Source: Pseudomonadota bacterium
GTDB taxonomy: Bacteria; Myxococcota_A; UBA9160; PR03
DNA: 54,486 nucleotides
Direction of reading: 5' to 3'
NCBI GenBank assembly: GCA_003576805.1
Contig: QEVM01000009.1
Span: forward strand, 1 to 54,486
Below are positions 2,726-10,404 of this stretch, in pieces (the first letter of the stretch is position 1; the number at the start of each line of letters is the position of its first letter). The position numbers and the translations under genes are program-made. The notes under the pieces were generated by a model. It searched no databases, was not told the origin of the DNA, and saw nothing but the letters and a program-made list of their open reading frames with translations.

Positions 2726-4357
2726 CTAGCGCGTTCGCTTGGAGATCTGGCCGAGCGTGCCGGCCGGATGACGCGCGTGGTACTCCTCGCGCGTGAAGCC
2801 GCGGGCGACCTCGAGGCCAGCGGAGAGCGTCGCGAGCACGAGCAGCTCCGCCGCGATGCTGGCGCGCGGCGCGAGCCCGAGCCCGCCGCCCTCGCGGCCG
2901 ACGCGCGCGTCGAGCACGACGTGCGACTCCTTCGCGAGCGGCGACTCGAGATCGCCCGTGATGCCGATGATCTTGGCGCCGAGCGCGCGCAGCGCGGCGA
3001 CCGCGATGAGGAGCTCCTGCGTGCGGCCGCTGTTGCTGATCGCGATCACGACGTCGCCGGGCACGATCTGCCCGGCGCTGCCGTGCACCGTCTCGGTGGC
3101 GTGCAGGAACGCGGACGGCGTGCCGGTGGACGAGAGGATCGACGCGCCGTAGCGCGCCAGGTGCTCGGGCTTGCCGACGCCGGTGACGTGGACGCGGCCG
3201 CCGCCCGCCTCCGCGTCGCGGATCAGCGCGAGCGCCGCGAGGTAGCGGCCGGTGTCGGCGCGATCGCGCAGCGCGACCAGCTCGTCGATCATCACGCCGA
3301 GCGCGCCCTGCATCGCGCGGCCGGTGGGATCGGGCGGCGACTCGCGCGGCGCGAACGGCGCGCCGTCGTAGAGCTCGAGCGCGCGCTGGCGCGCCCAGGC
3401 GAGGTCGGCCGGGAACGCGCCGAGCCGCTCGACGCACGCGGCGCCGGCGGCGTTGCCCAGGCGCGCGGCGTCGGCGATCGAGAGGCCCTGGTGCAGGCCC
3501 GCGTGGAGCCCGCCGAGGAAGGCGTCGCCGGCGCCGGTCGCGTCGACCGCGTGCACGCGCGGCGCGGCGATCGCGCCCTCGAAGTCGGCGCTCGAGATCG
3601 CGCAGCCGGTGGCGCCGTCGGTCACCACGACCGCCTGGCTGCCGAAGCGCTGGCGCAGCCGGCGCGCGAGCACCAGCGCGTCGGCGTCGGGCGCGTCGAG
3701 CAGCTCGCGCGCCGCGCGCTTGGAAGGCTTCAGCAGGTCCGCGGCGCCGAGCACGGCGGCGAGCGTCTTCTCGTCGCCGAGACTCGGCACGGCCTCCGAC
3801 GGCGGCACGTCGAGATCGACCGTCGTGGCGAGCCGGTGCGACTTCGCGATGCGCAGCGCCTCGTGCACCGCGTCGAGCGGCACCTGGTGCACCTCGGTCG
3901 AGAGCCGGCGTGCGCGCGGGATGTACGCGGCGTGGTGTTCGCGCACGTGCGCGGCGGTCGTCTCGGCGGTCGCGGCGGGATCGAAGTAGATCGCGCGCTC
4001 GCCGCCCGGCTCGACGAAGATCGCGGCGACCGCGCTCGCGGAGCCGTCGAGCACGAGCTGATGCTCGATGCCGGCGCGGTCCATCGCCGCGCGCAGCAGA
4101 CGCCCGTTCTCGTCGTCGGCGCCCTTGCCGAAGATGCCGGTGCGCAGTCCGAGCGCGCTCGACCAGCCGAGCTGGTTGAGCACGACGCCGCCGATGAAGG
4201 TGCGCATCGACGCGCCGCCGTCGATCGGCTGCAGCGGCCCCTTCTGATCGGGACCCACGATGCGCGCGGCGCGGTGCACGCGGTCGACGACCATAGAGCC
4301 GAGGCCGACGACGTCGAGATCGCCGGCGTCCCGCGCGCCCGGCTGGCCTCGGCTCAC
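2726..4357 (-). CDS. Fusion of PfkB-family sugar kinase and SIS-domain sugar-phosphate isomerase (KdsD/GutQ-like)
   Basis: 543 residues from a GTG whose last bases form the stop of the upstream aldolase gene (GTGA overlap), implying translational coupling. Residues about 13-330 are a ribokinase/PfkB fold: IGGVVLNQLGW for the substrate loop, a GKGADDENG motif and DATGAGDAF at 272-280 with catalytic Asp278. Residues about 350-543 are a SIS domain very like arabinose-5-phosphate isomerase. The four residues known as catalytic in E. coli KdsD (K59, E111, E152, H193) align with K396 (GVGKPEH), E448 (SNSGRTQE), E489 (GREGGGLGLAP) and H530 (HPAGTLG). The CBS pair that follows SIS in KdsD is missing. 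The kinase substrate cannot be read from sequence. A role in making an activated sugar acid or heptose for surface glycans is inference from both domains and the neighbours. Confidence 0.85.
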   Translation of the reverse strand: MSRGQPGARDAGDLDVVGLGSMVVDRVHRAARIVGPDQKGPLQPIDGGASMRTFIGGVVLNQLGWSSALGLRTGIFGKGADDENGRLLRAAMDRAGIEHQLVLDGSASAVAAIFVEPGGERAIYFDPAATAETTAAHVREHHAAYIPRARRLSTEVHQVPLDAVHEALRIAKSHRLATTVDLDVPPSEAVPSLGDEKTLAAVLGAADLLKPSKRAARELLDAPDADALVLARRLRQRFGSQAVVVTDGATGCAISSADFEGAIAAPRVHAVDATGAGDAFLGGLHAGLHQGLSIADAARLGNAAGAACVERLGAFPADLAWARQRALELYDGAPFAPRESPPDPTGRAMQGALGVMIDELVALRDRADTGRYLAALALIRDAEAGGGRVHVTGVGKPEHLARYGASILSSTGTPSAFLHATETVHGSAGQIVPGDVVIAISNSGRTQELLIAVAALRALGAKIIGITGDLESPLAKESHVVLDARVGREGGGLGLAPRASIAAELLVLATLSAGLEVARGFTREEYHARHPAGTLGQISKRTR

Positions 4358-5418
4358 TGCTCGCTCTTGGGCGGGACGCTCACCCACGGAGGGCGGATGC
4401 GGCGCGCGGCGAGGTCGCGCACCTGGTCGAAGACCTCGTCGAAGCGCTCGGCGTCGGGCCGCGTGAGGAACGGCGTGCCGGGCGCGACGAGATCGCTGCT
4501 GATGACGCCGAGCCGGCGCAGCGCGCGCTTCAAGCACGCGATCGTGCGGCGCCCGCCCGCCGCGCGCGTGCCCTGGCGGAAGGCCTCGAGCACCTCGCGC
4601 GCCTGCTCCATCCGCTCGAGGTCGCCCGCGCGGCAGGCCTGCCAGGCGCGCGCCCACTCGCGCGGCAGCACGTTGGCGGGCCCCGCGACGACGCCGGCCG
4701 GCAGCTCGCCCGAGAGGCGCCAGCGGTTCCAGTGCTCGACCAGCGTGCCGACCAAGCCCGAGCGCGGCCGGAAGACGTCGAAGATCAGCATGGCGTCGCC
4801 GACGTAGATCGCGAAGTCGCCGCGCTCGTTGAAGCTGGCCGCCGCCTTCGTGTAGTTGCCGAGCACCTTGCGCGGCGCCGACACCTTGATCCCGCGCACG
4901 AAGTCGAGGCGCGAGAGCGCCTTCACCTGGCGGGTGCGGATGTGCGGCACCTTCGGGTCGATCGCGATGTCGGCGTTGTCGTAGAGATAGATGGGGATGC
5001 GGCGCGGCTGCGCGTCGAGCACGTCGGCGACGTCGCGCGCGACGAAGCGCACCGGGTCGTCGACGCCCTTGATCGAGAGCGGGGCGAGCACCGCCGCCGC
5101 GGCGCCGCAGGCGACCGCGACCTCGAGGTTCTCGAGCGTCTCCTCGGGGCTCGGGGCCGTGATGCCCGCCCACAGCTCGACGCCGCGCTCGACGCGCCCC
5201 GCGAGCTCGGCGTTGCAGGCGGCGACCTCCTCGGCGCAGACCTCGATGACGCGCTGGCGCACGCCGTTGTGCACGCGGTCCCACTCGCCGGTGGTGCCGG
5301 CCGCGAACACCACGTCGGCGCCGTAGCCGTCCTGGATCACGTAGCGGACGAGCGCGCGCTGATCGGCCTCGATCAGCTCGCCCTGCTCGTCCACCACCGT
5401 GATGACGGGGACGGACAA
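4354..5418 (-). CDS. DapA/N-acetylneuraminate lyase-family aldolase
   Basis: About 354 residues, longer than the usual 290-300. Class I aldolase family marks are present: GTTGE (41-45), a LYDN segment with Tyr146 in place of the usual YN-x-P tyrosine, and GIKVSA with the probable Schiff-base Lys178. The rest of the active site is divergent, and residues 200-354 include a long helical C-terminal part. Lysine synthesis by this gene is unlikely given its context next to a sugar kinase-isomerase; a 2-keto-3-deoxy sugar-acid aldolase or hydratase is more plausible. The start is uncertain: TTG at 5418 lacks a Shine-Dalgarno and leaves almost nothing before the first strand, while an in-frame CTG at 5454 is preceded by GGAGGA at good spacing and the frame stays open beyond it. 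Confidence 0.8.
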   Translation of the reverse strand: MSVPVITVVDEQGELIEADQRALVRYVIQDGYGADVVFAAGTTGEWDRVHNGVRQRVIEVCAEEVAACNAELAGRVERGVELWAGITAPSPEETLENLEVAVACGAAAAVLAPLSIKGVDDPVRFVARDVADVLDAQPRRIPIYLYDNADIAIDPKVPHIRTRQVKALSRLDFVRGIKVSAPRKVLGNYTKAAASFNERGDFAIYVGDAMLIFDVFRPRSGLVGTLVEHWNRWRLSGELPAGVVAGPANVLPREWARAWQACRAGDLERMEQAREVLEAFRQGTRAAGGRRTIACLKRALRRLGVISSDLVAPGTPFLTRPDAERFDEVFDQVRDLAARRIRPPWVSVPPKSEQ

Positions 5419-5535
5419 GCCCTTGCGGGGGTGCGTCTCCTCGACCGAGCGCAGTGTGGCGTCCTCCGTGCGGGCCGCCGTGAGGCGTGCAAGTGATGGA
5501 TGCGGCTCGGAAGATGCCTCAGCCCGCGGCGGCGG

Positions 5536-7607
<2,072 letters not shown>

Positions 7608-8408
7608 CTAGAGCGCGCTCCCGTCCGGCACCACCGCGCGCGGCACGACGACCGGGACGCCGTCGGGGCCCGCGAACACGTCGGCGTCGATGCCGTAGGC
7701 CGCGCGCAGCGGCTCGGGACGCAGCACTTCGGCCGGTCGTCCCACCGCCAGCACGCGACCGCCCGCGAGCAGCGCGACGCGGTCGCAGAAGCGGGCCGCG
7801 ACGCCGAGGTCGTGCGACACCACCAGCGCGCTCGCGCCGGCCGCCGCGCGCTCGCGCACCACCGACAGCACCTCGAGGCGATGGCGCAGATCGAGGAAGG
7901 CGGTCGGCTCGTCGAGCAGCAGCAGGCGCGGCTCCTGCGCGAGCGCGCGCGCGACGATCGCGAGCTGGCGTTCGCCGCCCGACAGCTCGAGGATCGAGCG
8001 GTCGGCGAGCGCGGCGATGCCCATCCGCTCCATCGCTGCGCGCGCCACCGCGAGATCGTGCGCGCCCTCGAAGCCGAGCGGACCGAGGTGCGGCGCGCGC
8101 CCCATCAGCACGATCTCGGCGACCGAGAACGGAAAGGGCACCTGCGTGTCCTGCGGCACGAGCGCGACGGCGCGCGCGCGCGCGCGCCGGTCGAGCGCAT
8201 CGAGCGACGCGCCGTCGAGCAGCACGCGGCCCGCGTCGGGTCGCAGCGCGCCGGCGGCGACGCGCAGGAGTGTCGTCTTGCCCGCGCCGTTGCGGCCGAG
8301 CAGGCCCACGATCTCGCCGGGCGCGACGTCGAGCGACGCGCCGCCGAGCACCGCGCGCGGGCCGAGCCGCACCGCGACGTCGCGCAGCGAGAGGCGCGGC
8401 GCGCTCAC
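7608..8408 (-). CDS. ABC transporter ATP-binding protein, FecCD/BtuCD type importer
   Basis: 266 residues from a GTG overlapping the permease stop (GTGA). Walker A LLGRNGAGKTTLL, signature LSGGERQ, Walker B LLLLDEPTAFLD and the H-loop SHD are all present, with the IVLMGRAPHLG and LRHRLEVL segments typical of BtuD/FhuC/HmuV ATPases. It powers uptake of cobalamin, heme or ferric siderophore together with the adjacent permease and binding protein. Substrate cannot be told apart from sequence alone, and no cobalamin riboswitch or Fur box was recognised upstream. Confidence 0.93.
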   Translation of the reverse strand: MSAPRLSLRDVAVRLGPRAVLGGASLDVAPGEIVGLLGRNGAGKTTLLRVAAGALRPDAGRVLLDGASLDALDRRARARAVALVPQDTQVPFPFSVAEIVLMGRAPHLGPLGFEGAHDLAVARAAMERMGIAALADRSILELSGGERQLAIVARALAQEPRLLLLDEPTAFLDLRHRLEVLSVVRERAAAGASALVVSHDLGVAARFCDRVALLAGGRVLAVGRPAEVLRPEPLRAAYGIDADVFAGPDGVPVVVPRAVVPDGSAL

Positions 8409-9427
8409 GCGACGAGGCCGCGCCGCTGCTGTCTGCGCAGCAGCAGCAAGAAGAGCGGTCCGCCCGCGAGCGCGGTGATGGCGCCCACCGGGAGCTCGCG
8501 TCCGGGCAGCACGCTGCGCGCAGCGGTGTCGCACAGCACGAGGAAGGCGGCGCCCGCGAGCGCGGAGGCGGGCAGCAGCAGCCGGTGGTCGGGCCCGAGC
8601 ACGAGCCGCAGCGCGTGCGGCACGATCAGCCCGACGAAGCCGATCAAGCCGGAGACCGACACGGCCGCGCCGACCATGAGCGCGGTCGCGAGCAGCAGCA
8701 GCCGCTTGGCGCGCTCGACCGCGACACCGAGGTGGGACGCGGTCTCGTCGCCCAGCGCGAGCAGGTCGAGCGCGCGCGCGTACGGCAGCGCGCAGGCGAG
8801 GCCGAGCGCGAACAGCCCCGCGAGCGGCGCGAGCAGCTCCGCGCGCGCCGCGCCGAGGTTGCCGATCAGCCACAGGAAGATGCTCGTGCCCTCGGCCATG
8901 CCGCCGAGCGAGGCGAGGAAGACGATCGCCGCGGACGCGAACGCGTTGAAGACGACGCCGGTGAGGAGCAGCGTCGTCGCGACGAGCCGCCCGCGCGCGC
9001 CGGCCGCGGTGAAGAGCAGCGCCGTCGCCGCGATCGCACCGGCGAACGCCGCGATCGGCACCGCGCCCGCGCCGAGCCCGAGCGAGGCGCCGAGGCTCAG
9101 CACCGCGACGCCGCCGAGCGCCGCGCCGCCCGAGATGCCGAGCACGAACGGGTCCGCGAGCGGATTGCGCAAGAGCGCCTGGAACACGACGCCCGCGACG
9201 GAAAGCGCCGCGCCGACCAGCGCGCCGATCGCGACGCGCGGCAGCCTGATGCGCCGCACGATGTCGGCCGCGGGCCCGGCGGCGTCGCGGTCGAAGAGCA
9301 CGCCGAACGCCTCGCGCGGCGACACCGCGCTCGGGCCCCACGCGAGCCCCGCCGCGATCGAGGCCGCGAGCAGCGCCGCGAGCGCGGCCGACACCGCGAC
9401 GAGTCGGGCGGGGCGCAGCACCTTCAC
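8405..9427 (-). CDS. FecCD/BtuC-family ABC permease
   Basis: 340 residues, about ten transmembrane helices. The family motifs LRNPLADPFVLGISGGAALG, FLWLIGNL and GFVGLIVPHALRLVLGPDHR are clear. Start is a GTG at 9427 overlapping the binding-protein stop (GTGA). It forms the inner-membrane channel of a vitamin B12/heme/siderophore importer with the ATPase downstream and the periplasmic protein upstream; the three genes are linked by 4-base overlaps, so stoichiometric translation from one mRNA is likely. Confidence 0.94.
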   Translation of the reverse strand: MKVLRPARLVAVSAALAALLAASIAAGLAWGPSAVSPREAFGVLFDRDAAGPAADIVRRIRLPRVAIGALVGAALSVAGVVFQALLRNPLADPFVLGISGGAALGGVAVLSLGASLGLGAGAVPIAAFAGAIAATALLFTAAGARGRLVATTLLLTGVVFNAFASAAIVFLASLGGMAEGTSIFLWLIGNLGAARAELLAPLAGLFALGLACALPYARALDLLALGDETASHLGVAVERAKRLLLLATALMVGAAVSVSGLIGFVGLIVPHALRLVLGPDHRLLLPASALAGAAFLVLCDTAARSVLPGRELPVGAITALAGGPLFLLLLRRQQRRGLVA

Positions 9428-10329
9428 GGTGCGGGCTCGGAATCGAGCGCCAGCGCATCGCCGTGCAGCGCGCGCGCGATGCGCAGCAGCGCGCGGTCGA
9501 GATCGGGACCCGGCAGCGTGACGTCGCCCGCGTCGAGCGCGACCACGCGGCCGCGCGCCACCGCGGGCAGCGAGGGCCAGCGCGACCAGAAGCGCACCGC
9601 CGGCTGCGGGTCGGAGTCGCTGTCGAGGATCACCTCCGGCGCGGCCGCGACGAGCCACTCCATCGACGCGCGCGGCCAGGGCTCGGCGAGCTCGGCGCCG
9701 ACGTTGCGCGCGCCGGCGATCGCGAGCATCTCGTCGAGGAACGAGCCGCGGCCGACCAGGAAGAGCGGCTCGCGTTGCAGCACGAGCACGCTGCGCGGCG
9801 GCGTGCGGCCGGCGGTCGCGCGGCGCACCGACTTGCGAACCCGCTCGATCGCGGCGATCCGTGCGCGCGCGGTGTCCTCGCGCCCGACGCGGGCGCCGAG
9901 CGTGCGGATCGTCTCCAGCACCTGGTCGAAGCTCACGGGGTCGAGCTCGAGGACGGGCAGCCCGAGCTCTTCGAGACGGGCGCGGAAGTCGCGCTGCTCG
10001 ACGGTCGGCACGAGCACGACGAGGTCGGGCTCGAGCGCGGCGACCGACTCGAGGCTCGGCGAGTAGAGCCCGCCGACGCGCGGCAGCGACGCCACGCTCG
10101 GCTCCGCCTTGGCGGAGAAGTCGTCGACGCCGACCAGCCGGTCCCGCGCGCCGAGGGCGACCAGGATCCGCGTCAGCGAAGGGTTCATCGAGACGATGCG
10201 GCGCGGCGGTCCGGCGGCGGCGGCCGCCGCGGCCAGCAGCGCCGGCGTCAAAAGCGCCGCGGCCAGCGCGACGCGCCCGAGGAGCGCGCCGAGGGCGGGA
10301 GGGAGTCGGAGCGCCGGCCGGCCACGCAC
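9424..10329 (-). CDS. Periplasmic binding protein of cobalamin/iron-siderophore ABC importer (BtuF-like)
   Basis: About 301 residues from a GTG at 10329. A signal peptide of about 35 residues (LGRVALAAALLTPALLAAAAAAAG) precedes the first mature strand RIVSMNPSLTRILVALGARDRLVGV, the standard opening of BtuF/FhuD-type class III binding proteins. Further family segments are LPRVGGLYSPSLESVAALEPDLVV and RFWSRWPSLPAVARGRVVALD. It captures a corrinoid, heme or ferric siderophore and hands it to the permease. An in-frame ATG at 10404 would extend the protein but would run through an inverted repeat and lacks a Shine-Dalgarno. Confidence 0.88.
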   Translation of the reverse strand: MRGRPALRLPPALGALLGRVALAAALLTPALLAAAAAAAGPPRRIVSMNPSLTRILVALGARDRLVGVDDFSAKAEPSVASLPRVGGLYSPSLESVAALEPDLVVLVPTVEQRDFRARLEELGLPVLELDPVSFDQVLETIRTLGARVGREDTARARIAAIERVRKSVRRATAGRTPPRSVLVLQREPLFLVGRGSFLDEMLAIAGARNVGAELAEPWPRASMEWLVAAAPEVILDSDSDPQPAVRFWSRWPSLPAVARGRVVALDAGDVTLPGPDLDRALLRIARALHGDALALDSEPAP

Positions 10330-10377
10330 GGCGGGCCAAGGTAGCGGCGGCGCCCGGACGCTGCGCCGCGCGGAAGG

Positions 10378-10404
10378 GTGCCGGGAGCGCAGCGCTCCCG
10401 GCAC
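10378..10404. repeat. Perfect 13-base inverted repeat between ComEA-like and binding-protein genes
   Basis: GTGCCGGGAGCGC at 10378-10390 and its exact complement at 10392-10404 are separated by one base, so any hairpin would open a few bases to form a loop. It lies 11 bases past the stop of the minus-strand ComEA-like gene, where a terminator or mRNA-stabilising hairpin would be expected, and upstream of the importer operon. There is no T-run after it, so intrinsic termination is uncertain. Confidence 0.6.

Follow-up and report, generated by a model that had tools for sequence, protein, structure and literature searches.

The aldolase-fusion locus

The window, which is the whole 54,486-nucleotide stretch of DNA that was analyzed, carries on its minus strand a gene for an aldolase followed by a gene for a protein that joins a PfkB-type kinase to a SIS domain. 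The features of the region are as follows.

2726..4357, minus strand: kinase-SIS fusion protein (543 amino acids, GTG start, single open frame)
2747..3199, minus strand: SIS domain of the KpsF/KdsD type with K396, E448, E489, and H530 and no CBS pair (TIGR00393; alignment with 5uqi, 2xhz, and 3etn)
3416..4312, minus strand: PfkB (ribokinase-like) kinase domain with DATGAGDAF and catalytic D278 (Pfam, 137 bits; Foldseek; invariant D272 and T274 to D278)
4354..4357, minus strand: GTGA, where the fusion start overlaps the aldolase stop (translational coupling)
4354..5418, minus strand: DapA-superfamily aldolase with an N-acetylneuraminate lyase (NAL)-like fold (354 amino acids, TTG start; Schiff-base K178, Y146, GTTGE motif)
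5536..6273, minus strand: small secreted or lipoprotein-like protein between enolase and aldolase, a neighbor in the class (start uncertain)
6273..7574, minus strand: enolase, a conserved upstream neighbor in the window's class only and probably outside the route proposed below

The first-pass annotation had described kinase and SIS domain as parts of one protein, and the fusion is indeed encoded by a single frame (2726..4357) that begins where the aldolase ends, such that the two frames, with the fusion GTG start codon overlapping the aldolase TGA stop codon, share the four bases 4354 to 4357; that start and stop overlap had also been noticed in that annotation. The motif and residue numbers given there were right (DATGAGDAF at 272 to 280; K396, E448, E489, and H530). 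The upper limit of the interval assigned to the unit, 2726 to 5454, lies 36 bases past the aldolase start at 5418. The possibility raised at the time, that two separate genes had been affected by a frameshift in this assembly, was rejected, as the single-frame fusion is conserved across relatives in dozens of independent assemblies. At one locus elsewhere (L048:2051-3708), kinase and SIS form two overlapping frames, which could be either a natural split or an assembly frameshift. Upstream of the enolase gene, probable BtuF/FecCD/ABC-type cobalamin or siderophore uptake genes occupy 7608 to 10404 of the minus strand, and their order is kept in much of the class.

The kinase domain has a PfkB fold with the GAGD catalytic motif and scored 137 bits against Pfam PfkB (PF00294). 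The catalytic D278 was invariant across an alignment of 45 fusions. D272 and positions T274 to D278, GAGD included, were also invariant. The best kinase model was that of ribokinase (TIGR02152), at 107.2 bits and under the equivalog cut-off of 299.65, and ribokinases were also the nearest solved structures of the kinase model (Foldseek, TMt up to 0.90). Weaker matches were to RfaE (heptose-7-phosphate kinase, rfaE domain I; 53 bits against a cut-off of 345), 2-keto-3-deoxygluconate kinase (53 bits), and fructoselysine 6-kinase (33 bits). A Pfam profile search of the fusion found no nucleotidyltransferase domain, and thus the combination that marks HldE, rfaE domain I above its cut-off plus a nucleotidyltransferase, is absent.

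The SIS domain scored 72.7 bits against Pfam SIS, and no CBS domains were found in the Pfam search. Against the KpsF model TIGR00393 it scored 126.5 bits over model positions 1 to 151 of 268, which falls under the curated cut-off of 203.7 for the full-length model, as there is no CBS pair; the protein is thus not a full-length KpsF, in which SIS and CBS pair together exceed that cut-off. All four catalytic positions of KdsD/KpsF (K, E, E, and H) are present: K396 and E448 were found in 45 of 45 fusions, H530 in 44 of 45 (the other having a gap), and E489 in 42 of 45, with D in the remaining three. Moreover, these residues align with the corresponding residues of the solved KdsD-type SIS domains 5uqi and 3etn, which together with the arabinose-5-phosphate isomerase 2xhz are the best solved relatives. 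Pfam search and both alignments therefore uphold the earlier description of a SIS domain that keeps the four KdsD positions without the CBS pair. Judged by its sequence, the domain is clearly of the KpsF type and not of the GlmS/FrlB or GmhA type, and we predict, with good confidence, that it has arabinose 5-phosphate (A5P) isomerase activity.

The aldolase matched Pfam DHDPS at 36.8 bits (cut-off, 22.1), and all 42 aldolase members matched the same family (PF00701), but the score against the DapA model TIGR00674 was 22.3 bits with a cut-off of 206.15, such that the protein does not qualify as DapA. The TIM barrel, lysine, tyrosine, and GxTGE motif of DHDPS/NAL class I aldolases are all present. 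In the 42-row alignment, the Schiff-base lysine K178, within the GIK motif that had been pointed out earlier, was invariant, as were Y146, G41-T42, G44-E45, and R253, and R128 and R175 were nearly so. The AlphaFold model (pLDDT 89) had as its best solved matches mostly N-acetylneuraminate lyases, with TMq values mostly of 0.72 to 0.74, and DHDPS matches were lower (mostly 0.66 to 0.68); TMt against NAL and DHDPS structures was 0.79 to 0.87 (Foldseek). Sequence identity to N-acetylneuraminate lyase was only about 18 to 19%. By predicted fold, N-acetylneuraminate lyase appears to be the nearest relative of the aldolase.

Conservation and gene neighborhood

A scan of public genomes recovered 50 relatives. 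Of these, 44 were full-length fusions in a single frame and five had SIS alone; the remaining one was a split pair. The fusion is also present in Binatota, and the two bacterial groups that carry the module, from soil and sea, have been little studied. The aldolase gene lay immediately before the fusion at all 43 of the 44 other fusion loci with enough upstream contig to be scored, and most relatives had a junction with a 4- or 8-base overlap or a gap of at most 14 bases. Both conservation and reading-frame overlap strongly support the earlier view that kinase, isomerase, and aldolase form a coupled unit. Within the phylum, the aldolase was confined to the window's class (237 genomes sampled), and a plasmid search returned no match to it.

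Within the class, 91 sampled genomes were inspected. About 60 carried the full fusion (one cut by a contig end), two had kinase and SIS as separate genes, seven had SIS without the kinase, and one was undecidable as the contig ends there. The aldolase was present in 65 of the 69 genomes with SIS and in 0 of the 21 without it; kinship among the genomes means that these counts are not independent. The four exceptions are G033, where the contig ends, and G014, G030, and G037, which have intact flanks from which the aldolase is absent; aldolase loss was seen in three genomes that keep the fusion. We conclude that, within the class, aldolase and SIS are hardly ever found apart.

The kinase is dispensable within the module, having been lost in seven genomes of the class that keep both aldolase and SIS. 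In the SIS tree, which was not strongly resolved and in which the SIS-only label includes canonical KdsD and acidobacterial rows, SIS-only rows appeared at several places, with eight label changes, at least three of which were forced by supported branches. The scatter is consistent with repeated loss of the kinase. In G024, the genome of locus L050, the match to the fusion began at residue 273 and contained an internal stop, as would be expected if a leftover piece of the kinase end stood before SIS. In G002, aldolase and SIS are still adjacent (L070), and what is clearly the same kinase is a separate gene on another contig (L071:1821-2822).

The first-pass annotation had placed the unit next to enolase, as a source of phosphoenolpyruvate, and next to a glycosyltransferase-methyltransferase, but neither is a conserved part of it. 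In the window's class the aldolase is preceded by enolase and the small secreted protein, an arrangement not seen in Binatota, for which reason enolase was rejected as a general member of the route. The glycosyltransferase-methyltransferase gene was found beside the fusion in no relative but the closest, L006, and was rejected likewise. We regard both as neighbors only, weakly linked to the module. No Kdo hydrolase or transporter was recognized beside the module. Several relatives have, just upstream of the aldolase, a gene for a receiver domain (response regulator) apparently fused to an XRE-like helix-turn-helix (L083:5218-5823; L075, about 4700 to 5500, minus strand; L076:3-902; L079:1114-1737), and the gene sits upstream of the fusion where the aldolase was lost. 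A role of this protein in regulating the module is possible.

Kdo genes and the missing isomerase

The genome from which the window comes encodes KdsA (340.7 bits; cut-off, 314) and KdsB (208.8 bits; cut-off, 155.2). SIS domains were found there in GlmS (two of them), in MurQ, and in the fusion, and contig C42 gave one further, weak match. A separate kdsD, the check proposed by the first-pass annotation, was not found in the genome, and the fusion is the only KpsF-type isomerase found there. The more distant Binatota-type group showed the same arrangement, as in 17 of 17 genomes KdsA was present and the fusion was the single KpsF-like SIS. KdsA was also present in each of three Acidobacteria-type genomes, whose only KpsF-like SIS is a stand-alone protein of this SIS subfamily. 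The acidobacterial stand-alone proteins at L051 to L054 are 57% identical to the window's SIS domain, and three of the four adjoin a 6-phosphofructokinase-like gene and not Kdo genes. Canonical KdsD was found in four genomes of the class: G013, G045, and G053, which are without the module, and G071, which has the module and in which canonical KdsD has a second kdsA-kdsB set beside it.

The correspondence between module and Kdo genes is incomplete in both directions. Across the class, SIS and Kdo genes showed a modest association (64/5 versus 14/7, p = 0.005, uncorrected for kinship). Neither the module nor any KpsF-type isomerase was found in 11 genomes with KdsA (G038, G042, G044, G046, G047, G048, G061 to G064, and G069), ten of which also have KdsB, G063 being the one without; the module is thus not simply required for Kdo synthesis. 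A search for a replacement isomerase in module-less genomes found, besides GlmS, that the SIS genes in G038, G042, and G044 were MurQ-like or GmhA-like. SIS genes beside kdsA at the four loci L114 to L117 may be MurQ-like, judging from the profile positions they match; these loci were screened only with a gene picker based on GC content by codon position, and the SIS gene itself was not among its picks. Conversely, the module was kept in four or five genomes in which neither KdsA nor KdsB was found (G009, G032, G033, G037, and the very incomplete G026). Both proteins went unfound in every sampled genome of genera g31 (G056 to G060) and g16 (G032 to G035), which suggests that these genera lost Kdo.

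A candidate route for Kdo turnover

One way to account for the module is that its two genes encode three consecutive steps between a 3-deoxy-2-ulosonic acid, with Kdo the likeliest candidate, and the pool of pentose phosphates, in a layout like that of the nan (sialic acid) pathway. The aldolase, as a NanA/DapA superfamily lyase acting through a Schiff base on K178, would cleave Kdo to pyruvate and D-arabinose; the ribokinase-like domain would phosphorylate D-arabinose to A5P; and the SIS domain would interconvert A5P and D-ribulose 5-phosphate. The SIS domain would double as the absent KdsD, as the same isomerase can feed A5P to KdsA for Kdo synthesis. Kdo, an eight-carbon cell-wall sugar, is indicated as the ulosonic acid made of pyruvate and D-arabinose because a NAL-type lyase, a pentose-type kinase, and a pentose-5-phosphate isomerase have D-arabinose or its 5-phosphate in common. 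N-acetylneuraminate lyases can form Kdo from D-arabinose and pyruvate (PMC4016182), and thus the chemistry of the aldolase step has precedent. We infer every substrate, the direction of flow, and the action of the kinase on a free pentose. We put the probability of this reading as a whole, in which Kdo is turned over by a nan-like route and the isomerase serves as KdsD too, at roughly 0.45. The earlier proposal of a complete route for a sugar acid or a heptose is plausible for the sugar acid, given the NAL-like aldolase, ribokinase-like kinase, and KdsD-like SIS, and weaker for the heptose, given the RfaE score and the missing nucleotidyltransferase.

The SIS domain might instead simply be the lineage's KdsD for Kdo biosynthesis, with kinase and aldolase as accessories: the kinase might sense a nucleotide or sugar, as the CBS pair may, and the aldolase might catalyze a separate or side reaction. 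SIS is the sole KpsF-type isomerase in nearly all carriers, nearly all of which have KdsA and KdsB, the kinase has been lost repeatedly, and the acidobacterial relatives have SIS alone, all of which fit this explanation. We nevertheless consider it doubtful, if still a serious contender, as the invariant kinase GAGD and aldolase Schiff-base lysine argue for active enzymes, the aldolase is bound to SIS far more tightly than the Kdo genes are, and some Kdo-less genomes retain the module.

The order of steps could also resemble the Entner-Doudoroff pathway, with the kinase converting Kdo to Kdo-8-phosphate, the aldolase releasing pyruvate and A5P, and SIS producing D-ribulose 5-phosphate. PfkB kinases include 2-keto-3-deoxygluconate kinases, a weak match here (53 bits), and the conserved aldolase arginines R128, R175, and R253 could hold a phosphate, but the kinase scores much higher against ribokinase models (107 bits) and has its nearest folds among ribokinases, and the route would break down the organism's own Kdo-8-phosphate intermediate, such that we find it quite improbable. 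A different sugar altogether is another unlikely reading: Amadori compounds (FrlD kinase and FrlB SIS deglycase), KDN with a mannose-6-phosphate-isomerase-like SIS, or a heptose. In each of these routes, a sugar kinase is combined with either a SIS enzyme or a lyase of the NAL type, and weak fructoselysine 6-kinase (33 bits) and RfaE (53 bits) matches exist. Against them, the SIS domain is plainly of the KpsF type (126.5 bits), keeps the four catalytic positions, and is not GlmS/FrlB- or GmhA-type, and Amadori chemistry is ill-suited to a lyase and a pentose-type kinase.

Returning to the nan-like Kdo route, a search of an incomplete open-access collection for a Kdo aldolase, Kdo catabolism, a D-arabinose kinase, and a kinase-isomerase fusion found no such unit. 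There is a weak indication that the fusion and a dedicated Kdo lyase-kinase-isomerase route are new; each domain comes from a known superfamily. We tentatively suggest an undescribed Kdo turnover pathway, in which the kinase for salvage and the isomerase that also feeds Kdo synthesis are joined, and making and recycling would meet in one protein. If true, the module would fill the place of the arabinose-5-phosphate isomerase that is missing from Binatota and from a large class, so far uncultured, in the window's phylum, point to genes that may encode a Kdo aldolase and a D-arabinose kinase, and extend a sialic-acid-style route to another ulosonic acid.

The module shares features with four known systems. 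With KdsD/KpsF/GutQ and the CBS-less 5uqi and 3etn it has in common the SIS fold, the four catalytic positions, and a C-terminal HPxGxLG motif, and like KdsD/KpsF/GutQ it is found in genomes with KdsA/KdsB, but its SIS domain is fused behind a kinase and is without the CBS pair. Moreover, the module SIS forms a deep branch separate from the canonical KdsD proteins found in the same class (branch lengths, 1.7 and 2.0 changes per site). Ribokinase (RbsK) has the same PfkB signature and is nearest to the kinase by sequence as well as by fold (TMt up to 0.90), but the kinase here scores 107 bits against the curated cut-off of 299.65 and is fused to an isomerase. HldE, of LPS sugar synthesis, is likewise a PfkB kinase fused to a second enzyme, in that case a nucleotidyltransferase (adenylyltransferase) and not an isomerase, and the RfaE match is 53 versus 345 bits. 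Finally, NanA offers the nearest solved folds and is a pyruvate-releasing class I aldolase, and the nan pathway consists of lyase, kinase, and epimerase, an order of steps that the lyase, kinase, and isomerase here would repeat. Unlike in nan, the aldolase is only about 18 to 19% identical to its counterpart, the kinase is PfkB and not ROK, a SIS isomerase takes the place of the NanE epimerase, and kinase and isomerase are fused.
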